Under the pieces are notes generated by a model that saw only the letters and a list, made by a program, of their open reading frames with translations, did not search any database and was not told the DNA's origin. Shown in pieces: positions 6,162 through 30,150 of a stretch of 64,000 nucleotides of DNA. Every line of letters starts with the position of its first letter. Position 1 is the stretch's first letter. The stretch comes from Synechococcus sp. Tobar12-5m-g (lineage in GTDB: Bacteria > Cyanobacteriota > Cyanobacteriia > PCC-6307 > Cyanobiaceae). Both the position numbers and the translations under genes were made by a program. The stretch lies in contig NZ_JAGQBB010000005.1 in the NCBI RefSeq assembly GCF_024345415.1, positions 1 to 64,000 of the forward strand, written 5' to 3'.

Positions 6162-7601
6162 ATGTTCACTGATTACCAGCCGCGCAAGGGTTACGACGAG
6201 TACTTCAACGCCGCCGCCGAGCCCCGCGCCGCCCTGCGCCCCCTGCTCTCCTCCCTGGGCCAGCTGGGCATCGAGGAGATCAACCGCAACCACGCGGCCG
6301 CCGGCCTGCTGCTCAAGCGCCTCGGCGCCACCTTTCGCCTCAACGGCTCTGGTGAGGAGGGCGGCGAACGCATCCTCCCCTTCGACCCGCTGCCCCGGCT
6401 GATCCGCTCCGGCGATTGGGATCTGCTCGAGACCGGCCTGATCCAGCGCCTGGAAGCGATCGACCACTTCCTGGCCGATGTCTATGGCGATCAGAAGATC
6501 CTCGACGACGGGGTGGTGCCCCGCGCGGACGTGGAAAGCTCCCATGGCTGGCGTCCCCAGATGCGGGGCTTCAAGCCACCCCTGGGTCGCTGGTGCCACG
6601 TGTCCGGCCTCGACCTGATCCGCGATGGCCAGGGCACCTGGCGGGTGCTGGAGGACAACCTGCGCTGCCCGTCCGGGGTGGCCTACTTCCTCGAAAACCG
6701 CCGGGTGATGAAACGGATGTTCCCGAGCCTCTTCGCCGGGCGCACCGTCCATCCGATCGACGATTACCCCTCCCACCTGCTCCAGGCCCTGCGGGAGCTG
6801 GCCCCCTGGACCGACAGCCCCACCGTGGTGCTGCTCACCCCCGGGGTGTTCAACAGCGCCTACTTCGAGCACAGCTTCCTGGCCCAGCAGATGGGCATCC
6901 AGCTGGTGGAAGGCCGTGACCTGGTCTGCGAGGGCAACCGGGTGTGGATGCGCAGCACGGCAGGCCTGCAGGCCGTGGATGTGATCTACCGCCGCATCGA
7001 CGACGACTTCCTCGATCCGGCCGTGTTCCGGAGCGATTCGATGCTGGGGGTGCGCGGCCTGATGGAGGCCTACCGCACCGGCCGGGTGGCGATCGCCAAT
7101 GCCCCGGGCACGGGGGTGGCCGATGACAAACTGATTTACGCCTACGTGCCGGACATGATCCGCTATTACCTGGCCGAGGAGCCGATCATTGAAAACGTTC
7201 CCACCTACATCTGCGCCCGGCCCGAGGACCAGGCCTACGTGCTGGCCCACCTCAAGGATCTGGTGGTGAAATCGGTGGGGGAGGCGGGCGGCTACGGCAT
7301 GCTGATTGGTCCCCACGCCCAGCCCGGGGAGATCCTGGACTTTGCCGAGAAGATCAAGGCGGATCCCCGCAACTTCATTGCCCAACCCACCCTGGAGCTC
7401 TCAACGGTGCCCTCCCTGAGCGAAGGTGAGCTCTACCCCTGCCACGTCGATTTGAGGCCCTACGTCCTGCGGGGCCAAGGCACCTGGGTGAGCCCCGGCG
7501 GCCTCACCCGGGTGGCCCTGCGGCGGGGCTCCCTGGTGGTGAACTCCTCCCAGGGGGGCGGCTGCAAGGACACCTGGATCGTGGATGAAGCCCCATGCTG
7601 A
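6162..7601 (+). CDS. Circularly permuted type 2 ATP-grasp protein
   Basis: The 479-residue protein belongs to the DUF404/DUF407 circularly permuted ATP-grasp family. Marks are MFTDYQPRKGYDEYF at the start, the central RVLEDNLRCPSGVAY, and KSVGEAGGYGMLIGP near Lys370, a likely nucleotide-binding segment. Such proteins are predicted to form amide bonds on a peptide or amino acid with ATP, but the substrate is unknown. I chose the ATG at 6162 because relatives begin MFTDY. A TTG at 6093 would add 23 residues. The gene overlaps the next (alpha-E) by 7 bases, and that pair plus a transglutaminase is a widely conserved partnership of unknown function. Confidence 0.85.
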   Translation: MFTDYQPRKGYDEYFNAAAEPRAALRPLLSSLGQLGIEEINRNHAAAGLLLKRLGATFRLNGSGEEGGERILPFDPLPRLIRSGDWDLLETGLIQRLEAIDHFLADVYGDQKILDDGVVPRADVESSHGWRPQMRGFKPPLGRWCHVSGLDLIRDGQGTWRVLEDNLRCPSGVAYFLENRRVMKRMFPSLFAGRTVHPIDDYPSHLLQALRELAPWTDSPTVVLLTPGVFNSAYFEHSFLAQQMGIQLVEGRDLVCEGNRVWMRSTAGLQAVDVIYRRIDDDFLDPAVFRSDSMLGVRGLMEAYRTGRVAIANAPGTGVADDKLIYAYVPDMIRYYLAEEPIIENVPTYICARPEDQAYVLAHLKDLVVKSVGEAGGYGMLIGPHAQPGEILDFAEKIKADPRNFIAQPTLELSTVPSLSEGELYPCHVDLRPYVLRGQGTWVSPGGLTRVALRRGSLVVNSSQGGGCKDTWIVDEAPC

Positions 7602-8650
7602 GCCGCGTCGCCGATTCGCTCTACTGGATCAACCGGTACATCGAACGGGCGGAGAATCTCTCCCGCTTCCTGGAGGTGAGCGATGCGATGGCGCTCGACT
7701 GCCCACCGGGCAGCGCTGAGCCCTGGCTTCCCTTGATCGATGCCAGCGGTGATCGCGAGCTCTTTGATGTGCTCTGCCCTGAGGGGCGTCCCACCGATGT
7801 GGTGCGGTTCCTGGTCAACCATCCCGACAACCCCAGCAGCATCCTCAACTGCATCGCCACGGCCAGGGAGAATGCCCGCCAGATCCGGGAGGTGATCACC
7901 ACGGAAATGTGGGAGCAGCTCAACGACATCTATCTCACCACCCAGGAGAGCGACCGGTTCTGGCAGCAGCCGACGCAGGAACGGCTCCATGAGATCCGTT
8001 ACGCCTGCCAGCTCTTCTATGGCATCACCGATGCCACCCTCAGCCGTGATCTCTCCTGGCATTTCAGCAAGCTGGGGCGGCTGGTGGAGCGGGCCGAAAA
8101 AACGAGCCGCATCCTCGATGTGAAGTACTTCCTGTTGCTGCCCAGTCCGGAGGAGGTGGGAGGGGTTCTGGATGAACTGCAGTGGATCTCCCTGCTGCGC
8201 TCCGCCGGGGCTTACCAGATGTTCCGGCAGTCGCGGCAGCAGGCCATCGCCCCCAAGGCCGTCGCGGCCTTCCTCCTGCTTGATCCGATCTTTCCTCGCT
8301 CCGTTCGCTACTGCCTGGAGGGGATCAACAAAACCCTGCGGGTGATTCGCGGCAATCCGGTGCCTGGACCCCCTGACGATCTCGAATGTCTGTCGGGGCT
8401 GATGCTGGCCCACTGGAGCTATGTGCGCATCGACGAGCTGATCGCCCGGGGCCTGCACGAGGCGATCGATCAGCTCCAGACCGAGCTCAACACCCTGCAC
8501 GAGCAGATCGAGGAGCGGTACTTCGTCACCACCCAACCAGCGCCGGGGCCCACCGCCTGCATCCAGCCCGGCTCCGCGAATGAGGAACCCACCAGCCTTG
8601 ACGCCACCCATCCCATCGCCCCGACGTCCCAGGCATGCGCGCCCGCATAA
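7595..8650 (+). CDS. Alpha-E domain protein (DUF403)
   Basis: The 351-residue, mostly helical protein starts MLSRVADSLYWINRYIERAEN, the hallmark of the alpha-E (DUF403) family. It also contains WHFSKLGRLVERAEKTSR and FPRSVRYCLEGIN, both typical. The biochemical activity of the family is unknown. It is almost always encoded with a circularly permuted ATP-grasp and a transglutaminase-like protein, as here, where it overlaps both neighbours (7 bases upstream, 16 downstream). This implies coupled translation and a shared pathway. The last 45 residues are a low-complexity Pro/Ala/Thr tail. Confidence 0.88.
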   Translation: MLSRVADSLYWINRYIERAENLSRFLEVSDAMALDCPPGSAEPWLPLIDASGDRELFDVLCPEGRPTDVVRFLVNHPDNPSSILNCIATARENARQIREVITTEMWEQLNDIYLTTQESDRFWQQPTQERLHEIRYACQLFYGITDATLSRDLSWHFSKLGRLVERAEKTSRILDVKYFLLLPSPEEVGGVLDELQWISLLRSAGAYQMFRQSRQQAIAPKAVAAFLLLDPIFPRSVRYCLEGINKTLRVIRGNPVPGPPDDLECLSGLMLAHWSYVRIDELIARGLHEAIDQLQTELNTLHEQIEERYFVTTQPAPGPTACIQPGSANEEPTSLDATHPIAPTSQACAPA

Positions 8651-9525
8651 CGCATACCCTCACCTATCGCTACAGCGAACCCGTCCAGCTGGGGGCCCAT
8701 CGCCTTTGCCTCAAACCCCGTGCCCACGGCTTTCAGCGGCTGCTGAGCTTTGATCTCTCCTTTTCTCCCGATCCCCATCGCCTCCACCCGCTGATCGCCG
8801 CCAGCGGCGACGACATCCTGCGGGCCCATTTTCTCGGCTACACCGATGCTCTGGAGATTCGGGCGATCAGCAACGTGGAGACCCAGGTGGCGCCTTTGCT
8901 TGAGGTCTGCCTGGCCCAGAACGAACCGGAACTGCCCTACCCGGTGGGGCACCTGAACGGGGATCTGATGGGAAGCCTGGAGGGATGGCTGCCCAATGGT
9001 CAGCACGAGCCCGCCGCCGTGGAACTGGCCCAGGAAGCCCTGATGGGAAGTGACCAGCGCGCCCTGATGTTCCTTCAGAACCTGGTGGAGATGATTCAGG
9101 ACCGGGTCAAGTACACCCAGCGCCATGCCGGACCCGCCTGGCCGGCGGGCCGCACCCTGAGGGAGCGGGTGGGTTCCTGCCGGGATCTGGCGGTGCTGAT
9201 GATCGAGGCCTGTCGCTGCGTCGGCCTGCCGGCGCGGTTTGTGAGTGGCTACCACCTGGTGGAGCCCAGGCCCGAGCGCTACGACCTCCATGCCTGGGCC
9301 GAGGTCTATCTGCCGGGGGCTGGCTGGCGGGGCTTCGATCCCAGTGGTCTTGGCGCCATCGATGACCGCTACATCCCCCTGGCCACCTCCTCGAAGTCGT
9401 CCCTCACCGCCGCCGTCTCCGGCTCGTTCAGTGGTCCGCCGGGGGTGGAGAGCGAGCTGAGCTGGGCGATCGATGCCGAGGTGCTCAGCGAGATTCCCAG
9501 CTTGCCCGACCTTCTTCACCTCTGA
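8635..9525 (+). CDS. Transglutaminase-like protein
   Basis: The 296-residue protein has the bacterial transglutaminase N-terminal beta domain (RITHTLTYRYSEPVQLG) followed by a transglutaminase core with an intact triad: Cys182 in GSCRDLA, His219 in DLHAWAEV and Asp235 in GFDPSG. In this family the core usually acts as a cysteine protease or amidase on peptides. No signal peptide is seen, so it should be cytoplasmic. It overlaps the alpha-E gene by 16 bases. Together with the ATP-grasp it could make and trim a peptide or a protein modification, which is an inference from conserved association. Confidence 0.87.
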   Translation: MRARITHTLTYRYSEPVQLGAHRLCLKPRAHGFQRLLSFDLSFSPDPHRLHPLIAASGDDILRAHFLGYTDALEIRAISNVETQVAPLLEVCLAQNEPELPYPVGHLNGDLMGSLEGWLPNGQHEPAAVELAQEALMGSDQRALMFLQNLVEMIQDRVKYTQRHAGPAWPAGRTLRERVGSCRDLAVLMIEACRCVGLPARFVSGYHLVEPRPERYDLHAWAEVYLPGAGWRGFDPSGLGAIDDRYIPLATSSKSSLTAAVSGSFSGPPGVESELSWAIDAEVLSEIPSLPDLLHL

Positions 9526-9656
9526 GCCATCGAGGTGATCGGTGCCGTTCAGACCCTTTGAGGAGGGTGCTGCTCCAGATCGAAAAGTGTTCGCGAACCT
9601 CAGGATGAACAGGAATCGGTAACCGTTGGAGCAGCGTCGAGGGCGCCTCCCGCAGC

Positions 9657-12140
9657 ATGAAGGATCCAGACGTCCGATACCGCTCCATGGCCACGACCAG
9701 TGCCCCTCCCACCGACCGCGCCGCCCGCGGCGCCTCCGATGGGCATGCCCTGGCCGAGGGGATGCGCCACCACCTCTTCTCCAGCCAGGCCAAGTCGCCC
9801 TCCCTGGCCACCCCCCACGATTACTACCGCTGTCTGGCCCTGGCGGTTCGCGACCAACTGCTCCATAACTGGGTCGATACGGCCGAGGCCTACACCCAGG
9901 CCCATGTCCGCACCGTCAGCTATCTCTCCGCCGAATACCTGCTCGGCCCCCACCTGGAGAACAACCTGGTCAACCTCGGGCTGCGGGACGCCGCCCATGC
10001 CGCCTGCGCCGAACTGGGCCTCGACCTGCAGGAGCTGATCGAGGAAGAGCCGGAACCCGGCCTGGGCAACGGGGGACTTGGCCGCCTGGCGGCCTGCTTC
10101 CAGGAGTCGATGGCCAGCCTCGAGCTGCCGGCGATCGGCTATGGCATCCGCTACGAATTCGGCATCTTCCGCCAGCAGATCCGCTGCGGCAACCAGGTGG
10201 AGAGCACCGACCCCTGGCTGGCGCAGGGCAACCCATGGGAGGTGATTCGCCCGGAATGGACCTACCCGGTCAGGATCGGCGACACCACGGTGATGGGCGT
10301 GGCCTACGACACCCCGATCCTTGGCTACGGGGTGCACACCGCCAACACCCTGCGGCTCTGGTCGGCCCAGGCGCCTGAGTCATTTGATTTCGCCTCCTTC
10401 AACGCGGGCGACTACACCCGCGCCGTGCTGCAGAAGATGCAGTCGGAAACGCTCTCGAAGGTGCTCTATCCCAACGATGAGATGGAGCAGGGCAAGCAGC
10501 TTCGCCTCAGCCAGCAGATCTTCTTCGTGAGCTGCAGCCTGCAGGACATGTTCCGCATCCTCAAAGGTCAGGGGTTCGCGGTCACCGAGTTCCACACCAA
10601 GTTCGCCGTTCAGCTCAACGACACCCATCCGGCGATCGCCGTGGCGGAGCTGATGCGGCTGCTGATCGACGACCATGGCGTCGACTGGGACATCGCCTGG
10701 TCGATCACCACCGCGTCGATCAGCTACACCAACCACACCCTGTTGCCCGAAGCCCTGGAAACCTGGGGGGTGGATCTGTTCGCCCGGCTGCTGCCCCGCC
10801 AGCTGGAGATCATCTACGAGATCAATTCCCGCTTTCTGCGCATGGTGCGCATCCGCTATCCGGGTCAACCCGACCTGCTCGAGCGGATGTCGCTGATCGA
10901 GGAGGGGCCCCACCGCCGGGTGCGCATGGCCAACCTGGCCGTGGTCGGCAGCCAGCGGGTCAATGGCGTCGCCGAGCTGCACAGCGAGCTGGTTCGCACC
11001 CAGCTGTTCCCCGAGTTCGCCGCTCTCTGGCCCGACAAGTTCACCAACGTCACCAACGGGGTGACACCCAGGCGCTGGATCGCCGTGGCCAACCCTCCCC
11101 TGGCGGGCTACCTGGATGGGGCGATCGGCAGCACCTGGCGCCGTGATCTGGCCGAACTGAAGCGGCTGGAGTCCTTTGCCAATGACGCCTCCTTCCTGGA
11201 GGGCTGGCGATCGGTGCGTGACCAGGGCAAGCAGCGCCTGGCCACGGTCATCCATCAGCAGCTGGGCGTGCTGGTGGATCCCGCCTCCCTGTTCGATGTG
11301 CAGGTGAAGCGGATCCACGAATACAAGCGCCAGCATCTGGCCGCCCTGCAGATCGTCGAGCGCTATCTGCGCCTGCGCAATGGCGAGGACCTGCCCTCCC
11401 GCACCTTCATCTTCGGCGGCAAGGCAGCCCCCGGGTATGCCATGGCGAAACTCATCATTCGGTTGATCAACGGCATCGCCGAGATCGTCAACATGGATCC
11501 GGCCATGGACGGACGGATGCGGGTGGTGTTCCTGCCCAACTTCAGCGTCAGCCTCGGCCAGACGGTGTACCCGGCCGTCGACCTCTCCGAGCAGATCTCC
11601 ACCGCCGGCAAGGAGGCCTCCGGCACCGGCAACATGAAGATGGCCCTCAATGGCGCTGTCACGATCGGCACCCTGGATGGGGCCAACGTGGAGATCCGCG
11701 ATCTGGTGGGCCACGAGAATTTCTTCCTGTTCGGCCATACCGCCGAGCAGATCGACGCGCTCAACCGCAACGGCTACCACCCGATGCCCTGGCTGGAAAG
11801 TGATCCGATCGTGCGGGAAGCTATCGATCTGATCGGCTCCGGCCACTTCAGTGAGGGCGACCGCGACCTCTTTCACCCCTTGCTCGCCAACCTCTGCACC
11901 CAGGATCCGTTCCGGGTGATGGCCGACATCGGTGACTACCGGCGGGCCCAGAACGCGGTGGATGAAGCCTGGCAGAACAGTGCCAGCTGGAGCCGGATGT
12001 CGCTGCTGAACTGCGCCCGTTGCGGCTTCTTCTCCTCCGATCGCTCGATCGGTGAGTACGCGGAGAGGATCTGGAAGGTGAAGCCGATGCCGATCACCGC
12101 CTGCACCCTGATCCCCTCAGCCCCCATGGGTGAAGCCTGA
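9657..12140 (+). CDS. glgP: Glycogen phosphorylase (first copy)
   Basis: The 827-residue enzyme releases glucose 1-phosphate from glycogen using pyridoxal phosphate. It shows EPGLGNGGLGRLAACF, NDTHPAIAVAELMR, VTNGVTPRRW and the cofactor lysine Lys661 in EASGTGNMKMALNG. The ATG at 9657 follows a 131-base gap after the transglutaminase gene. An in-frame ATG at 9687 is an alternative. It is placed between transglutaminase-type genes, which is unusual, and its stop is 1 base from the DUF2126 start. A second glgP lies at 23500-26046 in a different operon, so this copy may have its own regulation or role. Confidence 0.96.
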   Translation: MKDPDVRYRSMATTSAPPTDRAARGASDGHALAEGMRHHLFSSQAKSPSLATPHDYYRCLALAVRDQLLHNWVDTAEAYTQAHVRTVSYLSAEYLLGPHLENNLVNLGLRDAAHAACAELGLDLQELIEEEPEPGLGNGGLGRLAACFQESMASLELPAIGYGIRYEFGIFRQQIRCGNQVESTDPWLAQGNPWEVIRPEWTYPVRIGDTTVMGVAYDTPILGYGVHTANTLRLWSAQAPESFDFASFNAGDYTRAVLQKMQSETLSKVLYPNDEMEQGKQLRLSQQIFFVSCSLQDMFRILKGQGFAVTEFHTKFAVQLNDTHPAIAVAELMRLLIDDHGVDWDIAWSITTASISYTNHTLLPEALETWGVDLFARLLPRQLEIIYEINSRFLRMVRIRYPGQPDLLERMSLIEEGPHRRVRMANLAVVGSQRVNGVAELHSELVRTQLFPEFAALWPDKFTNVTNGVTPRRWIAVANPPLAGYLDGAIGSTWRRDLAELKRLESFANDASFLEGWRSVRDQGKQRLATVIHQQLGVLVDPASLFDVQVKRIHEYKRQHLAALQIVERYLRLRNGEDLPSRTFIFGGKAAPGYAMAKLIIRLINGIAEIVNMDPAMDGRMRVVFLPNFSVSLGQTVYPAVDLSEQISTAGKEASGTGNMKMALNGAVTIGTLDGANVEIRDLVGHENFFLFGHTAEQIDALNRNGYHPMPWLESDPIVREAIDLIGSGHFSEGDRDLFHPLLANLCTQDPFRVMADIGDYRRAQNAVDEAWQNSASWSRMSLLNCARCGFFSSDRSIGEYAERIWKVKPMPITACTLIPSAPMGEA

Positions 12141-12141
12141 C

Positions 12142-14280
12142 ATGGTGGTTGCGGACCTGGCTCCCCTGATGCCCCAGACAAGCGACTGGATGATGGCCAC
12201 CGCGGCCGAGGTGGAAGCCCGGCTGCAGGCCGCCGGAATCAGCCTCACCCTCGGCGGCGAGCCCACCTATGTGCCCTTCGAGCCGGTGGGTGCCGAGTGG
12301 ACCGTGGCCGCCGACGGGCCCACCAAACTCACCTACGCCAGGGCATTGGCCCTGGAGCTGCAGCGCCGGGTGTGGCCAGGCAGCACCTTGATGTACTGCC
12401 CCGGCAAGCGCTACGACGGCGAGGTGAATCCCCGCTGGGCCCTGCGGCTGATCACCGGCCCCGATGGCCTCCCCGTGGTGCGCTGGCCCCAGGACGGCGA
12501 TCCCGCCTCCTTCCCGACCCTCACCCGGCCCAGGACGCTCAAGAAGGCCAAACCCCTGCCCGGCAAGAAGGCCCGGGAGTTCCTCGAGGCGATCGGTGAG
12601 GCCCTTGGCTGTCCCCTGCATCCGCTCAAGCTGCGCGATCCCCTCGACCCGGATCACCGGGTCTGGGCCGTGCCGCTCTGCCACATCGCCGAGCCCGAGC
12701 AGGCCGATGGTCCGTGTGGCTGGCTGGCCGCCGAATGGCCCCTGGCCAAGCCCCTGCGCGAGCTCCTTCCCGCCGCCGGCCCGGCCGGCCTGCGCCTGCC
12801 CCTTCAGCACTTCCCGCCTGGGGTGCTGCGCCAGGTGCTCACCCTGGAGATCAAGCCCGATGGCTGGAGCTTGTTCCTTCCTCCCCTGGCCCGGCAGCCC
12901 CTGCAAGAACTGCTCGAGCTGATCGCCGCCGCCACCACCGGTTGGAGCCGCCCCGACCTGAGCGGGGTGCTGCCGATCGACGTCGATGGCCACTGGCAGG
13001 TGCTGGGCCTGACCGCCGATCCCGGCGTGCTGGAGGTGAACCTGCCGGTCTGCCACAGCTGGATCGCCTACGCTGGCTGGATCCACACCCTCGATGAAGT
13101 GGGGGAAGTGGTGGGGTTGCGCTCCTGGAAACAGAACGGCACCAGGGTGGAGGGCACCGGCGGTGGCAACCATCTGCTCTGGGGTGGTCCGAGCCTGGAG
13201 GCCAATCCCTTCTTCAGCCGGCCGGCCTGGCTGGTCGGGATTCTGCGCTTCTGGCAGCATCACCCCAGCCTCTCCTATCTGTTCGGCAACCGCTCGGTGG
13301 GTCCCGCCTCCCAGTCACCGCGGCTGGATGAGGGCAGCGCCAGCCGCCTCGATCTGAACCTGGCCCATGCCGCGATCGAGGCCCTGCCGGAGGGCGACCA
13401 GCGTTTGTTGATCAGCGAAACGCTCCGCCACATCCATGCCGACCGCAGCGGCAACACCCACCGCAGCGAAATCAGCTTCGACAAGTTCTGGAACCCCGCC
13501 TGGGGCGGCGGCTGCCAGGGGCTGATCGAATTCCGGGCGATCGAGAGCCTGCCTCGGCCGGAGTGGACCGCAGCGATCGCCCTGCTCTGGAGTGCCATCG
13601 CCGCCCATCTTCTGGAGCCCGCCCATCGCCCCACTGGCCTGGCAGCCTTCGGTGAGCGGCTTCAGGATGAGCTACAACTTCCTGCCGCCCTCTGGAGCGA
13701 TCTGGAGCGGCTGATCGGCCTGCTACAGGCCGATGGCCTCGACATTGAGGCGGAGCCGTTCCGGCAACTCTGGGAGTGGCGCTTCCCGCTCCTGCTCGAC
13801 TGGCAACGGGACGACGCCTCCCTCGAGATCCGCCAGGCTCTGGAGCCCTGGCCCCTGCTCTGTGACACCCCGGTGGAGGGCGGCAGCACCAGCCGTTTCG
13901 TGGACAGTTCCCTGCAGCGCCTCGAGATCAGGGCCAACCATGCCTTTCTAGGCAGCCACCGCCTGCGGCTCAACGGTGGCCTAGTGCCGCTCGGAGATGG
14001 CTGGCTGGGTTTGCGCTATCGCCAGAGCAGCCTCTACCCCTCCCTCCATCCCTGCATCGAGCCCCATCTGCCTTTGCGGCTGGAGATCGAAGCCAAGGGG
14101 GAGGCCGACCTTCAAGGCGGGCCAGAGCCGATCGCTGCCTTCCGATTCGATGCTGGCGATGAGGTCTTCATGCCCGTGGCCCCCTCCATCGAGGCTCCCG
14201 GCGAGGCCCCCGGCCCAGGAAGAGCCGACTGGCGAGCACCGGCGGATGGCGGCAGAACCGTGGACCTGCGGCTGGGTTGA
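12142..14280 (+). CDS. DUF2126 protein (stand-alone C-terminal module of the large transglutaminase-type protein)
   Basis: The 712-residue product contains the DUF2126 family segments GGEPTYVPFE, DGPTKLTYARALALEL, NHLLWGGPS, LRHIHADRSGN and WGGGCQGLIEFRAIE. In many bacteria DUF2126 is the C-terminal two thirds of a roughly 1100-residue transglutaminase protein. Here the catalytic N-terminal part is missing, and a separate transglutaminase gene lies two genes upstream. DUF2126 is thought to be related to amidoligase or ATP-grasp systems, but no activity is known to me. The start could be the ATG at 12142 or a GTG at 12130 that overlaps the glgP stop. The 269 bases after it (14281-14549) hold no gene and presumably carry the galE promoter. 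Confidence 0.82.
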   Translation: MVVADLAPLMPQTSDWMMATAAEVEARLQAAGISLTLGGEPTYVPFEPVGAEWTVAADGPTKLTYARALALELQRRVWPGSTLMYCPGKRYDGEVNPRWALRLITGPDGLPVVRWPQDGDPASFPTLTRPRTLKKAKPLPGKKAREFLEAIGEALGCPLHPLKLRDPLDPDHRVWAVPLCHIAEPEQADGPCGWLAAEWPLAKPLRELLPAAGPAGLRLPLQHFPPGVLRQVLTLEIKPDGWSLFLPPLARQPLQELLELIAAATTGWSRPDLSGVLPIDVDGHWQVLGLTADPGVLEVNLPVCHSWIAYAGWIHTLDEVGEVVGLRSWKQNGTRVEGTGGGNHLLWGGPSLEANPFFSRPAWLVGILRFWQHHPSLSYLFGNRSVGPASQSPRLDEGSASRLDLNLAHAAIEALPEGDQRLLISETLRHIHADRSGNTHRSEISFDKFWNPAWGGGCQGLIEFRAIESLPRPEWTAAIALLWSAIAAHLLEPAHRPTGLAAFGERLQDELQLPAALWSDLERLIGLLQADGLDIEAEPFRQLWEWRFPLLLDWQRDDASLEIRQALEPWPLLCDTPVEGGSTSRFVDSSLQRLEIRANHAFLGSHRLRLNGGLVPLGDGWLGLRYRQSSLYPSLHPCIEPHLPLRLEIEAKGEADLQGGPEPIAAFRFDAGDEVFMPVAPSIEAPGEAPGPGRADWRAPADGGRTVDLRLG

Positions 14281-20943: not shown

Positions 20944-21343
20944 GAAAGCAGGACGTAAGCCGGGTTCTGTTCCGGCTCGCCGAAGCGGGCCGGGGCGATC
21001 ATCTATCTGGGACCGCCGTTACCGGCGGCCTCGAGCGGCGCGCTTGTGTCGGGACGGGTGCCATGGCCAACCGTTGTCCCTGGGCCTTGCTCCCAGCCGG
21101 GGTTTACCGAGCCAGCACCTCTCGATGCTGCTGGTGCGCTCTTACCGCACCCTTGCACCCTTGCCTGTGCCCCAAGGGGGCCATCGGCGGTGTGTTTCTG
21201 TGGCACTGTCCTCACGGTCGCCCGCACTGGGCGTTACCCAGCAGGCCTGGCCATTGGGGAGCCCGGACTTTCCTCAACCGGACCCGGCCCGCCAACCCGA
21301 AGGTCGATGTCCCGCTCCGATTGCGACCACCTCGCCTGCTTTC
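20944..21343 (-). ncRNA. rnpB: RNase P RNA (type A)
   Basis: On the minus strand the conserved 5' element GAGGAAAGTCCGGGCTCCC is complementary to 21258-21276, and the 3' part contains the conserved ACAGAACCCGGCTTACG near 20955. Helix P1 forms between GAAAGCAGG at 21335-21343 and CCTGCTTTC at 20944-20952, which fixes the ends and gives about 400 nucleotides. This RNA is the catalytic subunit that trims tRNA 5' leaders. It lies between rnc and tRNA-Arg. Confidence 0.95.
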
Positions 21344-21399: not shown

Positions 21400-21473
<74 letters not shown>

Positions 21474-21955: not shown

Positions 21956-22459
21956 GTGCCAGAAGAGGCCTGCCAATGCCCTGATTGTCAGCGTTTCTAT
22001 CGGGAGCATGACCGATTGATCCGCGAGCACGCCACCCTGCGCCAGCAGCAGGAGCTCAACTGGGCTGCCCTGCAGGCCTTCCGCACCCTTGCTGGCCGGG
22101 TGCTGGAGGAGTTGCAGAAGGAGCATGGCGATGGGGAAGGCGAGCCCTCAGGGGCCACCCCCCCCCCCGGAGCACAGGCTTCAGGCCCCAGCGGACCGAC
22201 CACGGCCCCCGGGGCCACCACCGATCCCGGTGACACCGACTCCCTGCAGCAGGCGATCGGCGATCTGGAGAACATCAACGCCCATCTGTTCTCGATTGAA
22301 GCCTTGATGGAGCGCATCTTCGATGTGCGCGTGCCCGAAGAGGTGGAGCAGAAGTTTCGCGAGGTGGCCGGAGAACTGGCCCCCGACCCCCTCAACGCCG
22401 ATCGCCTGCGCCTCAACCGTCTCCTCCACCAGACCCCCGATCTGCCCGATCGCGGGTAG
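21956..22459 (+). CDS. Conserved hypothetical protein with N-terminal cysteine cluster
   Basis: The 167-residue product begins from GTG with MPEEACQCPDCQRFYREHD, a Cys-x-Cys-x2-Cys cluster that could bind metal. A helical, possibly coiled region (residues 20-55) follows, then a Pro/Gly/Thr-rich linker (about 60-90). The helical C-terminal part contains LENINAHLFSIEALMERIFDVRVPEEVEQ. No function can be assigned. The last 47 bases overlap the convergent ackA gene. Confidence 0.65.
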   Translation: MPEEACQCPDCQRFYREHDRLIREHATLRQQQELNWAALQAFRTLAGRVLEELQKEHGDGEGEPSGATPPPGAQASGPSGPTTAPGATTDPGDTDSLQQAIGDLENINAHLFSIEALMERIFDVRVPEEVEQKFREVAGELAPDPLNADRLRLNRLLHQTPDLPDRG

Positions 22460-23525
22460 CCAGCCGGCATTGCCGGGCGATCATCCCCTCCTCATCGGCG
22501 GGCACCTGAAGCAGCTCGATGGGTTGGAGCCAGTTGAGCCGCGCATCGAGATCGGCCAGCAGCTGCCGATCGTTCTGGCCGATGCCGCCGCTGAGGGCGA
22601 TCACCTCCACCCCGCCAAGGCTGGCCGCCATCGCCCCGATCCCCTGCAACAGCCGATGCAGGAACACCTCCAGAGCGAGGAGAGCTCCGGCATGGCCCCC
22701 GGCGGCGGCCTGGCGCAGTTCTCGCATGTCGCCGCTCACGCCGGAGAGGCCGCGCAGGCCGCTCTCCTGCTGCAGTTCGCGCTCTAGCCGGTCGGCACCA
22801 TGCCCCTGTCTGAGTTGATGCAGCAGCAGCCCCGGGTCCACCGAACCGCTTCGGCTGGCCATCACCAGGCCCTCCAGCGGCGTGTAGCCCATGGTGGTGT
22901 CGATGCTGCGACCATCCCGGATCGCCGCCAGGGAACAGCCGGCCCCCAGGTGGCAGCTGATCAGGCGCAGGCCGGCCGGCTGGCCCCGTTGGGCCATCAC
23001 CACCTCACTGATGTGTTGGTGGTTCAGGCCGTGGAAGCCGAAGCGGCGCAGGCCGGCGGCGCGCCAGCTGGCTGGAATCGCGTAGGTGAAGGCCGCCGCC
23101 TCCAGGGTGCTGTGGAAGGCGGTGTCGAAGCAGGCCCACTGGGCAAGGGCCGGCCGCCAGGAACGCATCCAGCGGATCACTGCCAGGGCGGCGCCATTGT
23201 GGAGGGGGGCCAGGGGCACGAGGGCTTCGAGCGCCCCCTCCAGTGCCGGGGTGATCGGGGTGGGCGCCGTGAAGCGCTCGCCGCCATGGACCACCCGGTG
23301 ACCTACCAGCGCGATCCTCTCCAGCCAGGGGGCCAGGGCCTCCGGCAGCCAGGCTTCCAGGGCATCCGCCGGACCCTCACCGCCGGTGCCGGGGGCCCAG
23401 TCGGATTGCCCTTGCCAGAGGCGGCTGCCACCGCTGTCGATCAGGCAGGCCTTGAGGCTGGAGCTGCCAACGTTGAGCACCAGCACCAGCTGGTCGGGTT
23501 CAGGGTGCTGCCGGGCTGGTGCCAT
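22413..23525 (-). CDS. ackA: Acetate kinase
   Basis: The 370-residue protein has the acetate/propionate kinase motifs NVGSSSLKACL, VGHRVVHGGERF, FDTAFHSTL, FGFHGLNHQHIS and LGAGCSLAAIRDG. It converts acetyl phosphate and ADP to acetate and ATP. The start ATG at 23525 lies 26 bases inside the end of glgP on the same strand, so the two are translationally linked. Together with xfp upstream it completes a phosphoketolase route from glycogen to acetate. It is slightly shorter than the usual 400 residues. The 3' end overlaps a convergent hypothetical gene by 47 bases. Confidence 0.94.
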   Translation of the reverse strand: MAPARQHPEPDQLVLVLNVGSSSLKACLIDSGGSRLWQGQSDWAPGTGGEGPADALEAWLPEALAPWLERIALVGHRVVHGGERFTAPTPITPALEGALEALVPLAPLHNGAALAVIRWMRSWRPALAQWACFDTAFHSTLEAAAFTYAIPASWRAAGLRRFGFHGLNHQHISEVVMAQRGQPAGLRLISCHLGAGCSLAAIRDGRSIDTTMGYTPLEGLVMASRSGSVDPGLLLHQLRQGHGADRLERELQQESGLRGLSGVSGDMRELRQAAAGGHAGALLALEVFLHRLLQGIGAMAASLGGVEVIALSGGIGQNDRQLLADLDARLNWLQPIELLQVPADEEGMIARQCRLATRDRADRGSGGGDG

Positions 23526-26046
23526 TCGCCTGGCCATCGATGGAACAGCTGATCGTGACCGGGAAGGCCTCGGCTTTCCAGATCCGGCTGGCATACTCGC
23601 GGATCGAGCGGTCGGACGAGAAGAAACCGCTGCGGGAGGTGTTGAGCAGCGACATGCGATTCCACTGCTGGCGGTCAGCCCAGGCCGTGCTGACGACAGC
23701 CTGGGCGCGCAGGTAATCGGCAAAATCGGCGAGCACGAAGAACGGGTCGCGGCCGGTGAGGTTCTCGAGCAGCGGCTTGAACAGCTCCACATCGCCATTG
23801 CTGAAGTGGCCCTGCTCCACCAGGTGCAACACCTCCGGCAGCTCCGGCACGGTGGTGGCCAGTTCCCAGGGGCAGTACCCCTCCTCGGCCAGGGCATCGA
23901 TCTGGGAGGCCGTGTTGCCGAACAGAAAGAAGTTCTCCTCCCCCACCCGCTCCCGGATCTCCACGTTGGCGCCATCGAGGGTGCCGATCGTGAGGGAGCC
24001 ATTCATGGCGAATTTCATGTTTCCGGTGCCGGAGGCCTCCTTGCCGGCGGTGGAGATCTGCTCGGAGAGATCGGAGGCCGGATAGACCCGCTCACCCAGT
24101 TTGACGTTGTAATCAGCCAGGAAAACCACCCGCAACCTGCCGTCCATATCGGGATCGGCATTCACCGTTTCGGCAATGGCGTTGATGAAACGGATGATGA
24201 GCTTGGCCAGGTAATAGCCGGGAGCAGCCTTGCCTCCGAAGATCACCGTTCGGGGCGCCATGGCACCCGCCGTGCCGTTCTTGATGCGCAGGTACTCGGC
24301 GATTACCTGCAGGGCATTGAGGTGCTGACGCTTGTATTCATGGATGCGTTTCACCTGCACATCAAAAAGAGAAGCCGGATCCACCACCAGGCCGTTGCGG
24401 CGGTGAATGTAATGGGCCAGATCGGTCTTGACGGCCAGCTTGGTGGCCCCCCAGCGCTCTAGGAAGGCGCTGTCGTCGGCGAAGCGCTCCAACTGCTGCA
24501 GTCCGTCGAGGTCGCGCACCCAGTCCTGGCCGATCGCTTCATCGAGCAGCTGGCGCAGCCGGGGGTTGGCCAGGGCAATCCAGCGCCTGGGTGTCACCCC
24601 GTTGGTGACGTTGGTGAACTTGTCGGGCCAGAGGGCCGCATACTCGGGGAACAGCTGGGTGCGTACCAGTTCGCTGTGCAGGGCCGCCACCCCGTTGACG
24701 TGATGGGAGCCCACCGTGGCGAGATTGGCCATCCGCACCGCCTTGCCGCCGGCTTCATCGATGATCGATACCTTCCGCAGCAGCTGATCGTTGCCGGGAT
24801 ACTTCAGGCGCACCTGCTGCAGGAAGCGGCGGTTGATTTCGTAGATCAACTCCAGATGGCGAGGCAGCAGGCTGCCGAACAGATCGAGGCCCCATTTCTC
24901 CAGGGCCTCCGGCAGCAGGGTGTGGTTGGTGTAGGCCAGCGAACTGGTGGTGATCGCCCAGGCCTGATCCCACTCCAGGTGCTTCTCGTCGATCAACAGC
25001 CGCATCAGCTCCGCCACGGCGATCGATGGGTGGGTGTCGTTGAGCTGCACGGCCCAGTGCTCGGGAAACTCGCTCACGGGCAGGCCGCGCAGGTCCAGGC
25101 TGCGCAGCATGTCCTGGAGGCTGCAGCTCACGAAGAAGTGCTGTTGCTTCAGCCTCAGCCGCCGGCCCTCATCGGTGCCGTCGTTGGGATAGAGCACCTT
25201 GGAGAGGTTCTCCATGCTCACCTTCTCCTGAACGGCGCCGTAGTAATCGCCGACGTTGAAGGCGTAGAAGTCGAAGCTTTCGTTCGCTTCAGCCCGCCAC
25301 AACCTCAGCCGGTCGCAGGTGTTGACCCGGTAGCCCAGCACGGGGACGTCATGGGGAATGCCGATCGCCTGCTCACCGTGAATCCAGCGCACCCGGTACT
25401 GGCCGCTGTCGTCGCGGTACTTCTCGGTGTGGCCACCGAAGCCCACGTAGCAGGCCTGATCCGGGTGGGGCAGCTCCCAGGGCCAGCCGCCCTTGAGCCA
25501 CTTGTCGGTGACCTCCACCTGCCAGCCGTCGCGGATCAGCTGGTCGAAGATGCCGAATTCATAGCGGATGCCATAGCCGGTGGCGGGGATCTCCAGGCTG
25601 GCCAAAGACTCCAGATAACAGGCCGCCAGCCGGCCCAGGCCACCGTTGCCAAGCCCGGGTTCCTCTTCCACATCGAGGATCTCCTCAAGCGTGCCGAGGC
25701 CGAAGCGCTCCAGGGCTTGGGCCGCCTCCGCCTGGATGCCGAGCATCAGCAGGTTGTTGCCCAGCTGGGGCCCGATCAGGAATTCGGCCGAGAGGTAGGC
25801 CACCACCCGGGTGGGGGTGGCGCTGATCGCTTCGATACCGGCCAGGTAGCGGGTGATCAGCCGGTCGCGCACGGCGTAGCTGAGTGCCATGTAAAGGTCG
25901 TGGCGGTTGGCGGTCGGCGCGAGCTTGCCCAGGGTGTAGAAGAGGTGCTCGGCCATGCCGTCGAACACCCCCTCGGCGGTGAGCCCGTTGCGCTCCGGAT
26001 CGTTCAGGCAGCCCGGGGTGGGCAGGCTCAGAGCGGAGGCGGTCAT
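23500..26046 (-). CDS. glgP: Glycogen phosphorylase (second copy, xfp operon)
   Basis: The 848-residue enzyme has the same family marks as the first copy: EPGLGNGGLGRLAACY, NDTHPSIAVAELMR, VTNGVTPRRW and the cofactor lysine Lys678 in EASGTGNMKFAMNG. The ATG at 26046 was preferred over upstream in-frame starts because MTASALS follows directly and the upstream codons look random. It sits between xfp (59 bases upstream) and ackA (26-base overlap), so this copy is dedicated to feeding glucose 1-phosphate into the phosphoketolase pathway, an inference from the operon. Confidence 0.96.
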   Translation of the reverse strand: MTASALSLPTPGCLNDPERNGLTAEGVFDGMAEHLFYTLGKLAPTANRHDLYMALSYAVRDRLITRYLAGIEAISATPTRVVAYLSAEFLIGPQLGNNLLMLGIQAEAAQALERFGLGTLEEILDVEEEPGLGNGGLGRLAACYLESLASLEIPATGYGIRYEFGIFDQLIRDGWQVEVTDKWLKGGWPWELPHPDQACYVGFGGHTEKYRDDSGQYRVRWIHGEQAIGIPHDVPVLGYRVNTCDRLRLWRAEANESFDFYAFNVGDYYGAVQEKVSMENLSKVLYPNDGTDEGRRLRLKQQHFFVSCSLQDMLRSLDLRGLPVSEFPEHWAVQLNDTHPSIAVAELMRLLIDEKHLEWDQAWAITTSSLAYTNHTLLPEALEKWGLDLFGSLLPRHLELIYEINRRFLQQVRLKYPGNDQLLRKVSIIDEAGGKAVRMANLATVGSHHVNGVAALHSELVRTQLFPEYAALWPDKFTNVTNGVTPRRWIALANPRLRQLLDEAIGQDWVRDLDGLQQLERFADDSAFLERWGATKLAVKTDLAHYIHRRNGLVVDPASLFDVQVKRIHEYKRQHLNALQVIAEYLRIKNGTAGAMAPRTVIFGGKAAPGYYLAKLIIRFINAIAETVNADPDMDGRLRVVFLADYNVKLGERVYPASDLSEQISTAGKEASGTGNMKFAMNGSLTIGTLDGANVEIRERVGEENFFLFGNTASQIDALAEEGYCPWELATTVPELPEVLHLVEQGHFSNGDVELFKPLLENLTGRDPFFVLADFADYLRAQAVVSTAWADRQQWNRMSLLNTSRSGFFSSDRSIREYASRIWKAEAFPVTISCSIDGQANGTSPAAP

Positions 26047-26105
26047 GGCGGAACGGGCAGTGGAGGGGTAGGGAGAAGCAGCCTTGCGGGAGCAAGCGGA
26101 CCGAA

Positions 26106-28577
26106 TCAGGCCTGGCCCGATTCGGTGGACAGACCCCAGCGCCAATCGGTGACCTCGGGGGAGTCCATCCCATGGATGTGGGCATAGCTCCGGTGTCCCA
26201 GGATCGCCTCCTTCATGCGCTCCTTCACATGGGCGGCGCGGGAGCCAAGGGAGGGGACCCTGTTGATCACGTCAATCACCAGGTTGAAGCGATCAACCTG
26301 ATTGTTCATCGCCAGCTCCAGGGGTGTGTTGATGTTGCCCTTTTCCTTGTAGCCGCGCACATGGATGTTGGCGTGGTTGGTGCGCCTGTAGGTGAGGCGA
26401 TGGATCAACCACGGATAACCGTGGAAGTTGAAGATCACCGGCTTGTCGGTGGTGAACAGGCCGTCGAAATCGCGATCGGAGAGCCCGTGGGGATGTTCAC
26501 TGGGCTCGGAGAGGGCGAAGAGTTTGACGACGTTCAGCACGCGGATCCGGAGGTGCGGGATCTCCTGGCGCAGGATTTCCACCGCGGCCAGAACCTCCTT
26601 GGTCGGAATGTCGCCGGCGCAGGCCAGCACCACATCGGGTTCATCGGATTCGGTGCCGCAGTCGTCGTTGCTGGCCCAGCTCCAGAGGCCAATGCCCTTG
26701 GCCACGTGCTGGCGAGCCTGCTTGATCGAAAGGTATTGAAGATGCTTCTGCTTGTCGGAAACGATGATGTTGCAGACGTTGGTTTCAAGGAAGGCCTCTT
26801 CGGCCACCGCGAGCAGGCAGTTGGCGTCGGCCGGGAGGTAGACCCGCACCACTTCACCGCTCTTGTTGCCGGCCAGGTCGATGAAGCCGGGGTCCTGGTG
26901 GGTGAAGCCGTTGTGGTCCTGCCGCCACACCGTGGAGCTGATCAGGCAGTTCCACGGCCCGATCGGCGCCCGCCAGGGGGCGTGGTGGATGCAGGATTCC
27001 AGCCACTTGGCGTGCTGGTTGAACATCGAGGCGATCACATGGGCGAAAGCCTCGTAGGTGTGGAAGAAGCCGTTGCGGCCGGTGAGCAGGTAGCCCTCCA
27101 TCATTCCCACCAGGGTGTGCTCGGAGAGCATCTCCACCACCCGGCCGTTGCGGGCCAGTTCGCTGCCGCCGCTGTCCTCGGCAAGGATGTCTTCCATCCA
27201 CACCTTCTTGCTCACCTCGTAGACCGCCTGCAGGCGGTTGGAGGCGGTTTCGTCCGGGCCGAACACCCGCATGGAGTCGGGATTGCGGACGATCGTGTCG
27301 CGCAGCAGTTCACCGAGCGGGTAGGTGTTCTCGTGTTCGATCTGGCCGGGGCGGTCCACCGTCACCGCGTAGGTCTCGATCGGCGGCAGGCGCAGCTTGC
27401 GGCGCAGCAGGCCGCCGTTGGCGTGGGGGCTGGAGCCCATCCGCCGCGGGCCCGAGGGTGACAGCGCCCGCAGTTCGGGGATCAGGGTGCCGTTGGCATC
27501 GAAGAGTTCCTCGGGGCGGTAGCTCCGCAGCCAACTCTCCAGCATCTTGAGCTGCTCGGGATCCTTGTTGGGGGCCGGCAGCGGCACCTGGTGGGAGCGC
27601 CAGAAATTCTCCAGCTTCTTGCCGTTGAGTTCGGCAGGGCCTGTCCAGCCCTTGGGGGAACGCAGCACAATCATCGGCCAGGCGGGCCGGATCGCCTCGC
27701 CACCGCTGTGGCGGGCCTGGGCGCGAATTTCCAGGATTTGCTCCACGGCCGCATCCATGGCGGCCGCCATCGCCTGGTGCATGGCCTGCGGCTCGTGCCC
27801 CTCAACGAACAGCGGGTTCCAGCCATAGCCCCGCATCAGGTTCTCCAGCTCCTCACGGCTGATCCGGGCCAGAATCGTGGGGTTGGCGATCTTGTAGCCG
27901 TTGAGGTGCAGCACAGGCAGCACGGCGCCGTCGCTGATCGGGTTGAGGAACTTGTTGATGTGCCAGGAGGTGGCCAGGGGGCCTGTTTCGGCTTCGCCGT
28001 CGCCCACGCAGGCCAGGGCGATCAGCTCCGGGTTGTCGAACACCGCGCCACAGGCGTGGGAGAGCACGTAGCCGAGCTCGCCGCCTTCATGGATCGATCC
28101 GGGGGTTTCCGGGGTGCAGTGGCTGCCGATGTGGCCGGGGAAGGAGAACTGCTTGAAGAAGGAGCGCATCCCCTCGGCGTCCTGGCTCTTGTCGGGATAG
28201 ACCTCGCTGTAGCTGCCGTCGAGGTAGGCGGGGCCCAGCACCCCTGGGGCGCCGTGGCCCGGACCCGACAGATAGATCATGTCGAGGTCGTGGGCGCGGA
28301 TCAGCCGGTTGGCGTGGGTCCAGATGAAGGCCTGGCCAGGGCTCGAACCCCAGTGGCCCAGCAGCCGGTTCTTGATGTGCTCGTGCAGCAGGGGTTCCTT
28401 CAGCAGGGGGTTGGCCTGCAGGTAGATCATCCCGACGGCCAGGTAGTTGGCAGCTCGCCACCAGGCGTCGAGCAAGCGCGCCTCCTCGCTGCTCAGGGGC
28501 TGGGGGCCTATTGGCGCAACGGAGTCAGAGGAGGTGACGCTGGCGGCTGGCGAGGTCGGAGGGCTGATCGTCATCAC
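26106..28577 (-). CDS. xfp: Xylulose 5-phosphate/fructose 6-phosphate phosphoketolase
   Basis: The 823-residue thiamine diphosphate enzyme splits xylulose 5-phosphate or fructose 6-phosphate with phosphate to give acetyl phosphate. Family marks are [29 protein letters not shown], the cofactor region [17 protein letters not shown] with [10 protein letters not shown], and [13 protein letters not shown]. Start MMTISPP is at 28577, and a second ATG follows at once. It is the first gene of an apparent xfp-glgP-ackA operon. The 235-base gap to the divergent antiporter gene should hold its promoter. Confidence 0.96.
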
Positions 28578-28812
28578 GAAAGACGGCGCAGAAACGGACC
28601 GTAGGCAGCTCAGTCAGCCAGAGATGCCTTCCCCAACACATTCAGCGGAAAGCCTCCAGATCAGGGCGGGTTTTGATGTGGATTCACGGATCAAGTGCCG
28701 CCCGGCCTGCCGGCTCCCTCGGCTGTTCGGTGGGGAATGGACTCACTGCAACAGGGGCTGGCCTTAGGGTCGCCAGAATTTCCGGCACCCCTGAGTGGGG
28801 CCCCCTGGCTGA

Positions 28813-30150
28813 ATGATCGTCCCGACCATCCTTCTGGAACTGAGCCACCACCAGGTGGAGGTGGCTGAAACCCTCATCGGCGTCGGCAGCTTCGTTGTGA
28901 TCTTCGTGGCGGCCCGCACCCTGGCGGAACTCCTGGTGCGGTTCCAGCTGCCCAGCATCCTCGGCGAACTGATCGCCGGTGTGCTGATCGGCGCCTCCGG
29001 TCTGCATCTCGTGGTGCCGCCCGAAACCCATGCTGAACTGAATGCCGGCATGCTCAGGCTCCTGGGCGGCCTGGCAGACATCCCGCCCAGTGAGATTCAG
29101 GGCATCTATGAGGAGTCGTTTCCCATCCTCAAGGGCATTTCCACCCTGGGCCTCTATGCCCTGCTCTTCCTCACGGGGCTGGAGAGCGAACTGGATGAGC
29201 TGATCGCCGTGGGGGCCCAGGCTTCCACCGTGGCCTTGGCCGGGGTGGTGCTCCCCTTCGCCCTGGGCACGGCTGGTCTCATGGCCATCTTCCATGTGGA
29301 TCTGATTCCAGCGGTGTTCGCCGGCGCCTCGATGACCGCGACCAGCATCGGCATCACCGCCAGCGTGTTCAGCGAACTCGAGTACCTCAAGACCCGCGAG
29401 GGGCAGATCGTGATCGGTGCCGCCGTGCTCGATGACATCCTCGGCATCGTCATCCTGGCGGTGGTGGTGGCCTTGGGGGTCGGGGGCGATCTGGAGGCGG
29501 GTCCGATCATCAAGCTCTGCGCAGCCGCCGCCCTGTTCGTTGTAGTTGCCCTGGTGCTGAGTCGCACCGCCGCCCCGGGCTTCGACTGGTTGCTCGATCG
29601 ACTCAAGGCCCCCGGCGAAGTGATCGTGGCCTCCTTCCTGGTGCTCTGCCTCTGCTGCTTCGCCGCCACAGCCATCGGGCTGGAGGCGGCCCTGGGGGCC
29701 TTTGCAGCCGGCCTGATCCTCAGCTCCTCGAAGCACACCAAGGCCATTCAGGGTTCCGTGGTTCCCCTGGTGTCGCTGTTTGCCACGATCTTCTTCGTGC
29801 TGATCGGCACCAGCATGGATCTCTCGGTGATCAACCCGGCCGATCCCGCCAACCGGGCCGGCCTGGTGGTGGCGGCCTTCCTGCTGGTGGCAGCGATTGC
29901 CGGCAAGCTGGTGTCGGGCTGGAGCTTCCTGAGCGACAAGCCCACCAACCGGCTGGTGGTGGGGCTGGGCATGATGCCCCGGGGCGAGGTGGGCCTGATC
30001 TTCCTCGGCTTGGGCACCAGCGCCGGCCTGCTCACCCCTTCCTTGGAGGCGGCCATCCTGTTGATGGTGATCGGCACCACCTTCCTGGCTCCCGTGCTGC
30101 TCAGACTGGTGTTGAGCCGCAAGGACCCCGTTGCCGAACAACCTGCCTGA
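28813..30150 (+). CDS. Cation:proton antiporter (CPA2, NapA/Kef type)
   Basis: The 445-residue membrane protein has about 12 hydrophobic segments. It carries the CPA2 antiporter core, with TATSIGIT at about residue 175 and the paired aspartates Asp207 and Asp208 in GAAVLDDILGI. These are the residues that bind sodium and protons in electrogenic antiporters such as NapA. It probably exports Na+ in exchange for protons across the plasma or thylakoid membrane and resembles the cyanobacterial NhaS group. No regulatory TrkA/RCK domain is attached. The next gene overlaps its end by 20 bases. Confidence 0.9.
   Translation: MIVPTILLELSHHQVEVAETLIGVGSFVVIFVAARTLAELLVRFQLPSILGELIAGVLIGASGLHLVVPPETHAELNAGMLRLLGGLADIPPSEIQGIYEESFPILKGISTLGLYALLFLTGLESELDELIAVGAQASTVALAGVVLPFALGTAGLMAIFHVDLIPAVFAGASMTATSIGITASVFSELEYLKTREGQIVIGAAVLDDILGIVILAVVVALGVGGDLEAGPIIKLCAAAALFVVVALVLSRTAAPGFDWLLDRLKAPGEVIVASFLVLCLCCFAATAIGLEAALGAFAAGLILSSSKHTKAIQGSVVPLVSLFATIFFVLIGTSMDLSVINPADPANRAGLVVAAFLLVAAIAGKLVSGWSFLSDKPTNRLVVGLGMMPRGEVGLIFLGLGTSAGLLTPSLEAAILLMVIGTTFLAPVLLRLVLSRKDPVAEQPA

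Follow-up and report, generated by a model that had tools for sequence, protein, structure and literature searches.

A conserved putative xfp-glgP-ackA operon at the core glycogen phosphorylase locus of picocyanobacteria, a probable ATP-gated route from glycogen to acetate

Introduction

In the bifid shunt and in synthetic non-oxidative glycolysis, fructose-6-phosphate phosphoketolase and acetate kinase together generate ATP and need no redox reaction to do so. In cyanobacteria, the motif PWX2HX3YRX7HXRX31R was defined for ATP control of SeXPK, the phosphoketolase of Synechococcus elongatus, according to the available part of that report (PMC10365998). The same part describes unchanged ATP levels after SeXPK deletion, assigns the enzyme a main role as a Calvin-cycle brake in phototrophic growth, and cites earlier work on survival of dark, anaerobic, and osmotic stress (PMC10365998). 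GlgP, Xfp, and AckA of S. elongatus belong to one night-time co-expression set in an excerpt of PMC11979508, and xfp and glgP of marine Synechococcus WH7803 are up under stress in an excerpt of PMC7393227. The available portions of four other papers treat phosphoketolase or glycogen phosphorylase and contain no xfp-glgP-ackA unit (PMC7895386, PMC3261843, PMC517821, PMC8062543). No description of such a unit was met in the literature, where papers were judged mostly by title.

Here, the three genes are described in a 64,000-nucleotide stretch of Synechococcus sp. Tobar12-5m-g (hereafter, the window). They form an apparent operon, conserved among relatives, whose known enzymes are combined in a way that is new for the picocyanobacterial group.

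Organization of the Locus

The three genes lie on the same strand, with short gaps and a conserved order, as an operon would (Table 1). A sequence-only reading had proposed this same-strand unit, with its 59-nt gap and 26-nt overlap, and the proposal stands. That reading began xfp at GTG 28577, one codon ahead of the ATG at 28574. Its span of 23500-28577 covers xfp and glgP but leaves out most of ackA, which reaches 22413. The convergent hypothetical gene that forms the downstream border has no family match among Pfam and NCBIfam profiles. An Rfam scan returned nothing inside xfp-glgP-ackA, and nearby only RNase P RNA and one tRNA.

Table 1. Positions of the operon genes, their borders, and related features in the window
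Feature	Positions	Strand	Details and basis
xfp, phosphoketolase	26106-28574	minus	822 aa, ATG at 28574; NF003617, three Pfam XFP domains
ATP-regulatory motif PWX2HX3YRX7HXRX31R within xfp	26259-26414	minus	residues 721-772; exact match
glgP, glycogen phosphorylase, core type (type A)	23500-26046	minus	848 aa; TIGR02093, tree, synteny
ackA, acetate kinase, short form	22413-23525	minus	370 aa; PF00871, catalytic positions
xfp-glgP gap	26047-26105		59 nt
glgP/ackA overlap	23500-23525		26 nt
Promoter-like box CCTACGGTC	28597-28605	minus	22 nt 5' of xfp ATG; comparative basis only
CPA2-type cation/proton antiporter, divergent, conserved upstream border	28813-30150	plus	PF00999, TIGR00932, synteny
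Conserved hypothetical, convergent, downstream border	21956-22459	plus	synteny
glgP paralogue type B, outside operon	9657-12140	plus	family match, tree

No minus-strand terminator-like site was found between 21800 and 29200, either between the genes or after ackA. Together with the short gaps and the promoter-like box before the first gene, this makes a single transcription unit likely, and we infer one transcript from these features. A plain scan of the operon region gave no match to a sigma-70-type promoter.

The box upstream of xfp contains TACGGT as a possible -10 element. The pattern CTAC[CG]GT, picked by eye from these same sequences, was searched up to 350 nt upstream of genes. It precedes xfp in seven of 13 xfp-glgP loci (shuffle expectation, 0.41), and where type-A loci lack xfp it precedes glgP in 12 of 27 (expectation, about 1.0). 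It stands before glgP in none of the 12 loci where xfp precedes glgP, and it is absent from all 20 type B, five type C, and 14 other xfp-ackA loci; the count excludes L048, whose xfp is broken, L062, which is truncated at the start of its contig, and the type C glgP of G030. When the 27 type-A loci are divided post hoc, the box occurs in 12 of 17 and in none of 10. Fisher tests, both post hoc, give p 4e-11 without those 10 loci and p 7e-9 with all loci in (19/40 vs. 0/51). The pattern thus fits one locus promoter that would drive whichever gene stands first.

Across the window, the box is at chance level (11 observed, 10.9 expected). A stricter pattern has two to nine sites in each of 20 genomes (reversed control, 19-64 per strand) and occurs at the glgP locus in 12 of the 20, the window's own genome not among them. 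Because G061 and G004 also have a site 5' of a gene resembling ctaA, the box was considered as a dark-specific element. Among the 61 sites followed by a reading frame, however, the largest groups stand before a gene that is RecN-like by its sequence (15) and a sulfite/nitrite-reductase-like gene (6). The dark-specific reading was therefore set aside, as the box precedes unrelated genes and resembles a general core promoter.

Phosphoketolase and Acetate Kinase

Xfp matches NF003617 over its full length (1415.8 bits; cut-off, 1143), and its top PDB match is 8io8, named 'Probable phosphoketolase' (1171.8 bits). The eight residues of the strict ATP-inhibition motif are all present, exactly spaced from residue 721, and the enzyme should thus be held back by ATP. 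Among family Xfp proteins, 23 of 29 keep the strict motif; H or K replaces R711 in the other six, one of which additionally has W703 changed to F. The Arg in contact with the gamma-phosphate of ATP is replaced by H or K in three of the nine operon genomes (G077, G037, and G051).

AckA is a short form, with 370 residues vs. 394-405 in canonical AckA. It matches PF00871 at 287.5 bits (Pfam cut-off, 22) and falls just under the cut-off of the NCBIfam ackA model TIGR00016 (279.9 vs. 293.4 bits). The positions equivalent to N7, R91, H123, D148, H180, H208, R241, and E384, in what is presumably the numbering of the Methanosarcina enzyme, are all present. Seven of these eight catalytic positions are kept in 36 of 36 aligned proteins and the remaining one in 35. 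The best solved-structure match for this AckA is named propionate kinase and the second acetate kinase, so the enzyme may prefer either substrate.

The Operon Glycogen Phosphorylase Is the Core Copy

GlgP of the operon matches TIGR02093 over its full length (1154.8 bits; cut-off, 552.9) as well as PF00343. The genome has three full-length glgP genes: one in the operon, one near 9.7 kb of the window, and one on another contig. A maximum-likelihood tree built from 106 GlgP proteins places the operon copies, intermixed with unlinked copies from operon-less genomes, in one clade (type A) and assigns the 9.7-kb protein (type B) and the third one (type C) to clades of their own. The sequence-only reading was right to separate the operon gene from that at 9.7 kb.

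In a fetched selection of 27 type-A loci without xfp, which is not a draw of one locus from each of the 81 family genomes, the hypothetical gene (window 21956) adjoins glgP in 25, and on the far side of glgP the antiporter gene (window 28813) is present in 26. In the xfp-glgP loci, the window's own not counted, the antiporter gene is immediately 5' of xfp in 12 of 13 and the hypothetical gene comes after in 12 of 13. This synteny indicates that the position of glgP is fixed and that xfp and ackA were gained or lost on either side of it. In G009 and G061, the operon glgP is the sole glgP and must therefore serve all glycogen breakdown. Tree and synteny make the operon GlgP orthologous to the single core GlgP of the family, with its gene at the ancestral locus; the accessory copy is the 9.7-kb gene. 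On tree, synteny, and copy number, the idea of a dedicated duplicate was rejected. The sequence-only reading had called the operon gene a second phosphorylase and the route dedicated; neither word is supported, given three glgP genes in the genome, a core orthologue at a fixed locus, and two relatives with no other copy.

The C-terminal tail of the operon GlgP has one Cys, as do 37 of 40 type-A tails. A cysteine pair of the GlgP1 kind, as for redox control, was sought in the tail and not found.

Distribution in the Family

The family sample comprises 81 genomes, including the window's own; this and the phylum sample are even draws. XFP_N matches occur in 33 of the 81, and exclusion of five weak ones (22-38 bits) leaves 28 xfp-bearing genomes. 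Both xfp and ackA are present in 27 genomes, xfp alone in one (G022, which is 62% complete), ackA alone in none, and neither in 53. This co-occurrence has a Fisher p of about 1e-20, with genomes taken as independent despite kinship. In three of the 27 genomes having both genes, xfp is broken.

The order xfp-glgP-ackA is found in nine of the 81 genomes (G000, G048, G054, G061, G077, G064, G037, G009, and G051). This recurrence and the co-occurrence of xfp with ackA place the gene order beyond chance. In the eight operon relatives, glgP-to-ackA distances are -32 to 30 nt and xfp-to-glgP distances -4 to 60 nt, except in G054 (1155 nt), where an L-lactate dehydrogenase gene intervenes (TIGR01771, 324.1 bits; cut-off, 303.55). 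In four genomes, xfp-glgP is present and ackA is at another place or was not detected (G072, G047, G045, with a broken xfp, and G022, with the locus cut by a contig end), and one has the reversed order glgP-xfp with a type C glgP (G030). Two have ackA-xfp with a broken xfp (G008 and G063). Since xfp-ackA occurs without glgP in 12 of the 28 xfp-bearing genomes, the link to glgP is not required.

Pairs of xfp and glgP Outside the Family

To look beyond the family, the best 80 of at least 588 confirmed Xfp matches were surveyed, 71 of them with at least 1.5 kb downstream. In 13 of these 80, xfp is followed within 1.6 kb by a glgP in the same orientation. One of the 13 is a family member, a MAG locus with the order xfp-glgP-ackA (L120), and 12 are outside the family: three other cyanobacteria (L124, L189, and L190), eight proteobacteria by title (L127, L136, L144, L145, L155, which was counted from coordinates, L158, L167, and L172), and a bacterium in which a PPK2 gene separates xfp from glgP (L137). 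As a rough control, 13 window genes that flank the operon were followed through the best 80 loci; outside the family, only rimM-like (six loci) and rnc-like (one locus) genes appear. The phylum sample contains 68 non-family genomes with an XFP_N match above 400 bits. By coordinates read by eye, glgP is directly 3' of xfp in at least four of them (G085, G091, G190, and G209), with gaps of 73-252 nt; in G190, ackA lies 960 nt beyond the pair.

The neighbours of these pairs point to fermentation or sugar-phosphate rearrangement. A Hydrogenophilales MAG has ackA-xfp-glgP-transaldolase (L136), pyruvate formate-lyase follows xfp-glgP in G085 (L202), and Plectonema has D-lactate-dehydrogenase-like and GAPDH genes nearby (L189). 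At L145, pta-ackA is adjacent on the opposite strand. Of 20 neighbour proteins profiled, one from the window, six lack a Pfam match; the remaining neighbours without a hint of fermentation are regulators, phosphatases, an aminotransferase, an alcohol dehydrogenase, and a tRNA synthetase.

Loss, Transfer, and Age of the Operon

A close pair of genomes records the locus in two states. G004, from the same genus as operon-bearing G061, has an intact glgP, no xfp, and no intact ackA. The two loci align at the nucleotide level in three blocks (87, 92, and 89% identity), and G061 alone has 2480 bases with xfp and 833 bases within ackA. The scar of ackA 3' of glgP in G004 matches residues 2-32 (90%, E 4e-13) and 303-355 (72%, E 1e-19) of the G061 protein. 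By this alignment, the scar shows an internal deletion of ackA, and evidence from the same locus suggests that xfp was lost rather than gained. No convincing xfp remnant was found 5' of glgP in xfp-less genomes (best E 4e-4, about 20 residues).

Judged by common flanking genes, xfp-ackA pairs without glgP occupy about nine different sites in 15 loci. G076 has two xfp copies, one of which groups with that of G023, from another genus, with full support and flanking genes in common, which suggests transfer. In a Variovorax xfp-glgP pair, GlgP branches beside the picocyanobacterial family (support, 0.999) and Xfp is close to it together with two other bacteria (0.81). This branching raises the possibility that the xfp-glgP pairing is older than the picocyanobacterial family.

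A wider history can be offered tentatively, at somewhat less than an even chance. In it, xfp-glgP(-ackA) would be a widespread, independently reassembled module for glycogen fermentation via acetyl phosphate, opened by an ATP-sensing phosphoketolase. The module would be ancestral in the picocyanobacterial family, core GlgP included, and later dismantled in many lineages by loss of xfp and ackA, with glgP staying put.

Proposed Route and Alternative Explanations

The best explanation, with a probability of roughly 0.68, is that the operon at the ancestral locus of the core glgP encodes a branch from glycogen to acetate and ATP that opens at low ATP. GlgP would release glucose-1-phosphate from glycogen, and phosphoglucomutase and phosphoglucose isomerase, which the route needs and which would have to come from outside the operon, would convert it to fructose-6-phosphate. 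From fructose-6-phosphate (or xylulose-5-phosphate) and phosphate, Xfp would produce acetyl phosphate and a sugar phosphate, and AckA would use the acetyl phosphate to form acetate and ATP. Since Xfp is expected to be ATP-inhibited, falling ATP, for example on entry into darkness or in the absence of oxygen, would open the branch. The route is thus probably gated by ATP, with a flux direction and a timing of expression that we infer. The night-time co-expression set of S. elongatus (PMC11979508) speaks for this explanation. Speaking against it are the unchanged ATP levels after SeXPK deletion and the brake role given to that enzyme (PMC10365998), the family genomes with xfp-ackA and no linked glgP, the H or K residues in three operon genomes, the short AckA with its score under the NCBIfam cut-off, and a box picked by eye that is at chance level in the window.

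The rest of the genome bears on this route. A search for pta gave nothing in the window's own genome and a match in one of the 81 family genomes (G030); acetate and ATP are therefore the evident outlet for acetyl phosphate. The own genome also has an AMP-forming acetyl-CoA synthetase (995.6 bits) and matches to a pyruvate:ferredoxin oxidoreductase domain and a NiFe-hydrogenase large subunit. All 20 hydrogenase-bearing genomes among the 81 have xfp. In 28 chosen genomes of at least 2.4 Mb, the hydrogenase/xfp table (19, 4, 0, 5; p 0.0013, kinship ignored) indicates that size accounts for only part of this. Comparable gene pairs elsewhere among bacteria suggest that the unit serves fermentation in the dark or when energy is short. 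The part of the sequence-only reading that led from glycogen through acetyl phosphate to acetate and ATP therefore fits the enzymes, the lack of a detected pta, the recurrence of xfp-glgP, and the fermentation neighbours; its second phosphorylase and its dedicated route are not supported.

Could the operon instead act mainly as a Calvin-cycle brake? When ATP drops, Xfp would drain the sugar phosphates that regenerate the Rubisco substrate and AckA would recover one ATP, with glgP a mere neighbour that refills the pool. This role is shown for SeXPK in the available part of the S. elongatus report (PMC10365998), and the window Xfp carries the exact ATP motif. However, a brake leaves unexplained both the recurrent xfp-glgP pairing, proteobacteria included, and the lactate dehydrogenase, pyruvate formate-lyase, and transaldolase neighbours, and as the main role it is unlikely here. 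The brake and the glycogen-fermentation role are mutually compatible.

Pathway logic could also be absent altogether, with xfp and ackA near glgP by history and merely gaining its expression pattern. The persistence of glgP at its locus with or without the other two genes agrees with such promoter sharing, as does the scatter of xfp-ackA pairs at sites without glgP. Yet accident is hard to reconcile with xfp-glgP pairs in other cyanobacterial families and proteobacteria, or with three-gene sets in other orders, such as ackA-xfp-glgP in L136, which makes this account quite improbable. Still less credible is a second phosphorylase dedicated to fermentation, with another copy for ordinary glycogen breakdown: two further full-length glgP genes in the own genome would allow it, but the operon copy is orthologous to the core single GlgP and has no companion in G009 and G061.

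In picocyanobacteria, the ATP-gated branch from glycogen to acetate would couple the breakdown of a storage polymer with substrate-level formation of ATP within a single unit. Comparison of G004 with G061 catches this unit being dismantled and raises the question of why many family genomes dropped the route. The recurrent xfp-glgP pairing could give genome surveys an easy marker of glycogen fermentation, in phototrophs as well as in other bacteria.

Comparison with Known Systems

The XPK-ACK pathway of S. elongatus PCC 7942, as given in the available part of its report (PMC10365998), resembles the present one in joining an ATP-motif phosphoketolase to an acetate kinase that together lead from sugar phosphates to acetate and ATP. 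Unlike in that system, AckA is a short form here. In addition, glgP stands between xfp and ackA here, a comparison made at the level of the pathway.

The operon GlgP shares with Synechocystis GlgP1 and GlgP2 the GT35 phosphorylase family and a C-terminal tail. However, its tail has one Cys, whereas the excerpted account gives a pair in redox-controlled GlgP1 and none in GlgP2 (PMC12892837). Five freshwater Synechococcus genomes also have xfp and ackA in one drawn neighbourhood, but that neighbourhood is at another locus, near the nitrate operon, with no glgP named in the available part of the paper (PMC10161378). The route proposed here shares its phosphoketolase and acetate kinase with the bifid shunt and non-oxidative glycolysis and may run all or part of their cycle; unlike them, it would be fed by glycogen in a photoautotrophic host.

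Surroundings of the operon and of the type B glgP

A short way beyond the downstream edge of the window's xfp-glgP-ackA operon are an RNase P RNA and a tRNA gene. The 3' end of ackA overlaps the 3' end of a conserved convergent hypothetical gene by 47 nt (22413-22459). Genes of the alpha-E, transglutaminase-like, and DUF2126 amidoligase types surround the type B glgP, the copy at 9.7 kb. Several filamentous cyanobacteria have a rimM-like gene upstream of xfp, at a distance of 1-5 kb (loci L185, L186, L189, L190, L194, and L197).

Features of the window adjoining the operon and at the type B glgP
Feature	Position (nt)	Strand	Remark
Type B glgP	9657-12140	+	Neighbourhood 7595-14280
RNase P RNA	21000-21342	-	Partial match, reaching the edge of the searched stretch
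tRNA	21400-21473	+	

Altered operon genes in relatives

Among the sampled genomes, xfp is broken in G045 (L048), G008 (L063), and G063 (L064); the latter two have the gene order ackA-xfp with a full-length AckA. An internally deleted scar of ackA abuts the 3' side of glgP in G004 (L115, 4574 onward), and an L-lactate dehydrogenase gene sits within the operon of G054 (L039, 7947-8987), separating xfp from glgP. G085 (L222) carries a 121-aa xfp fragment upstream of a second glgP on the same strand, and the two look as if they were another, decayed xfp-glgP pair.

The promoter-like box at other genes

The box CGCTACGGTC, a promoter-like motif picked by eye before the first gene of type A glgP loci, also occurs 18-45 nt before a RecN-like gene (named from its sequence) at 15 loci (L250, L253, L260, L263, L266, L277, and nine more), often with a CTTCTAAA-like stretch upstream. 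For the family as a whole, this box may serve as a general core promoter.
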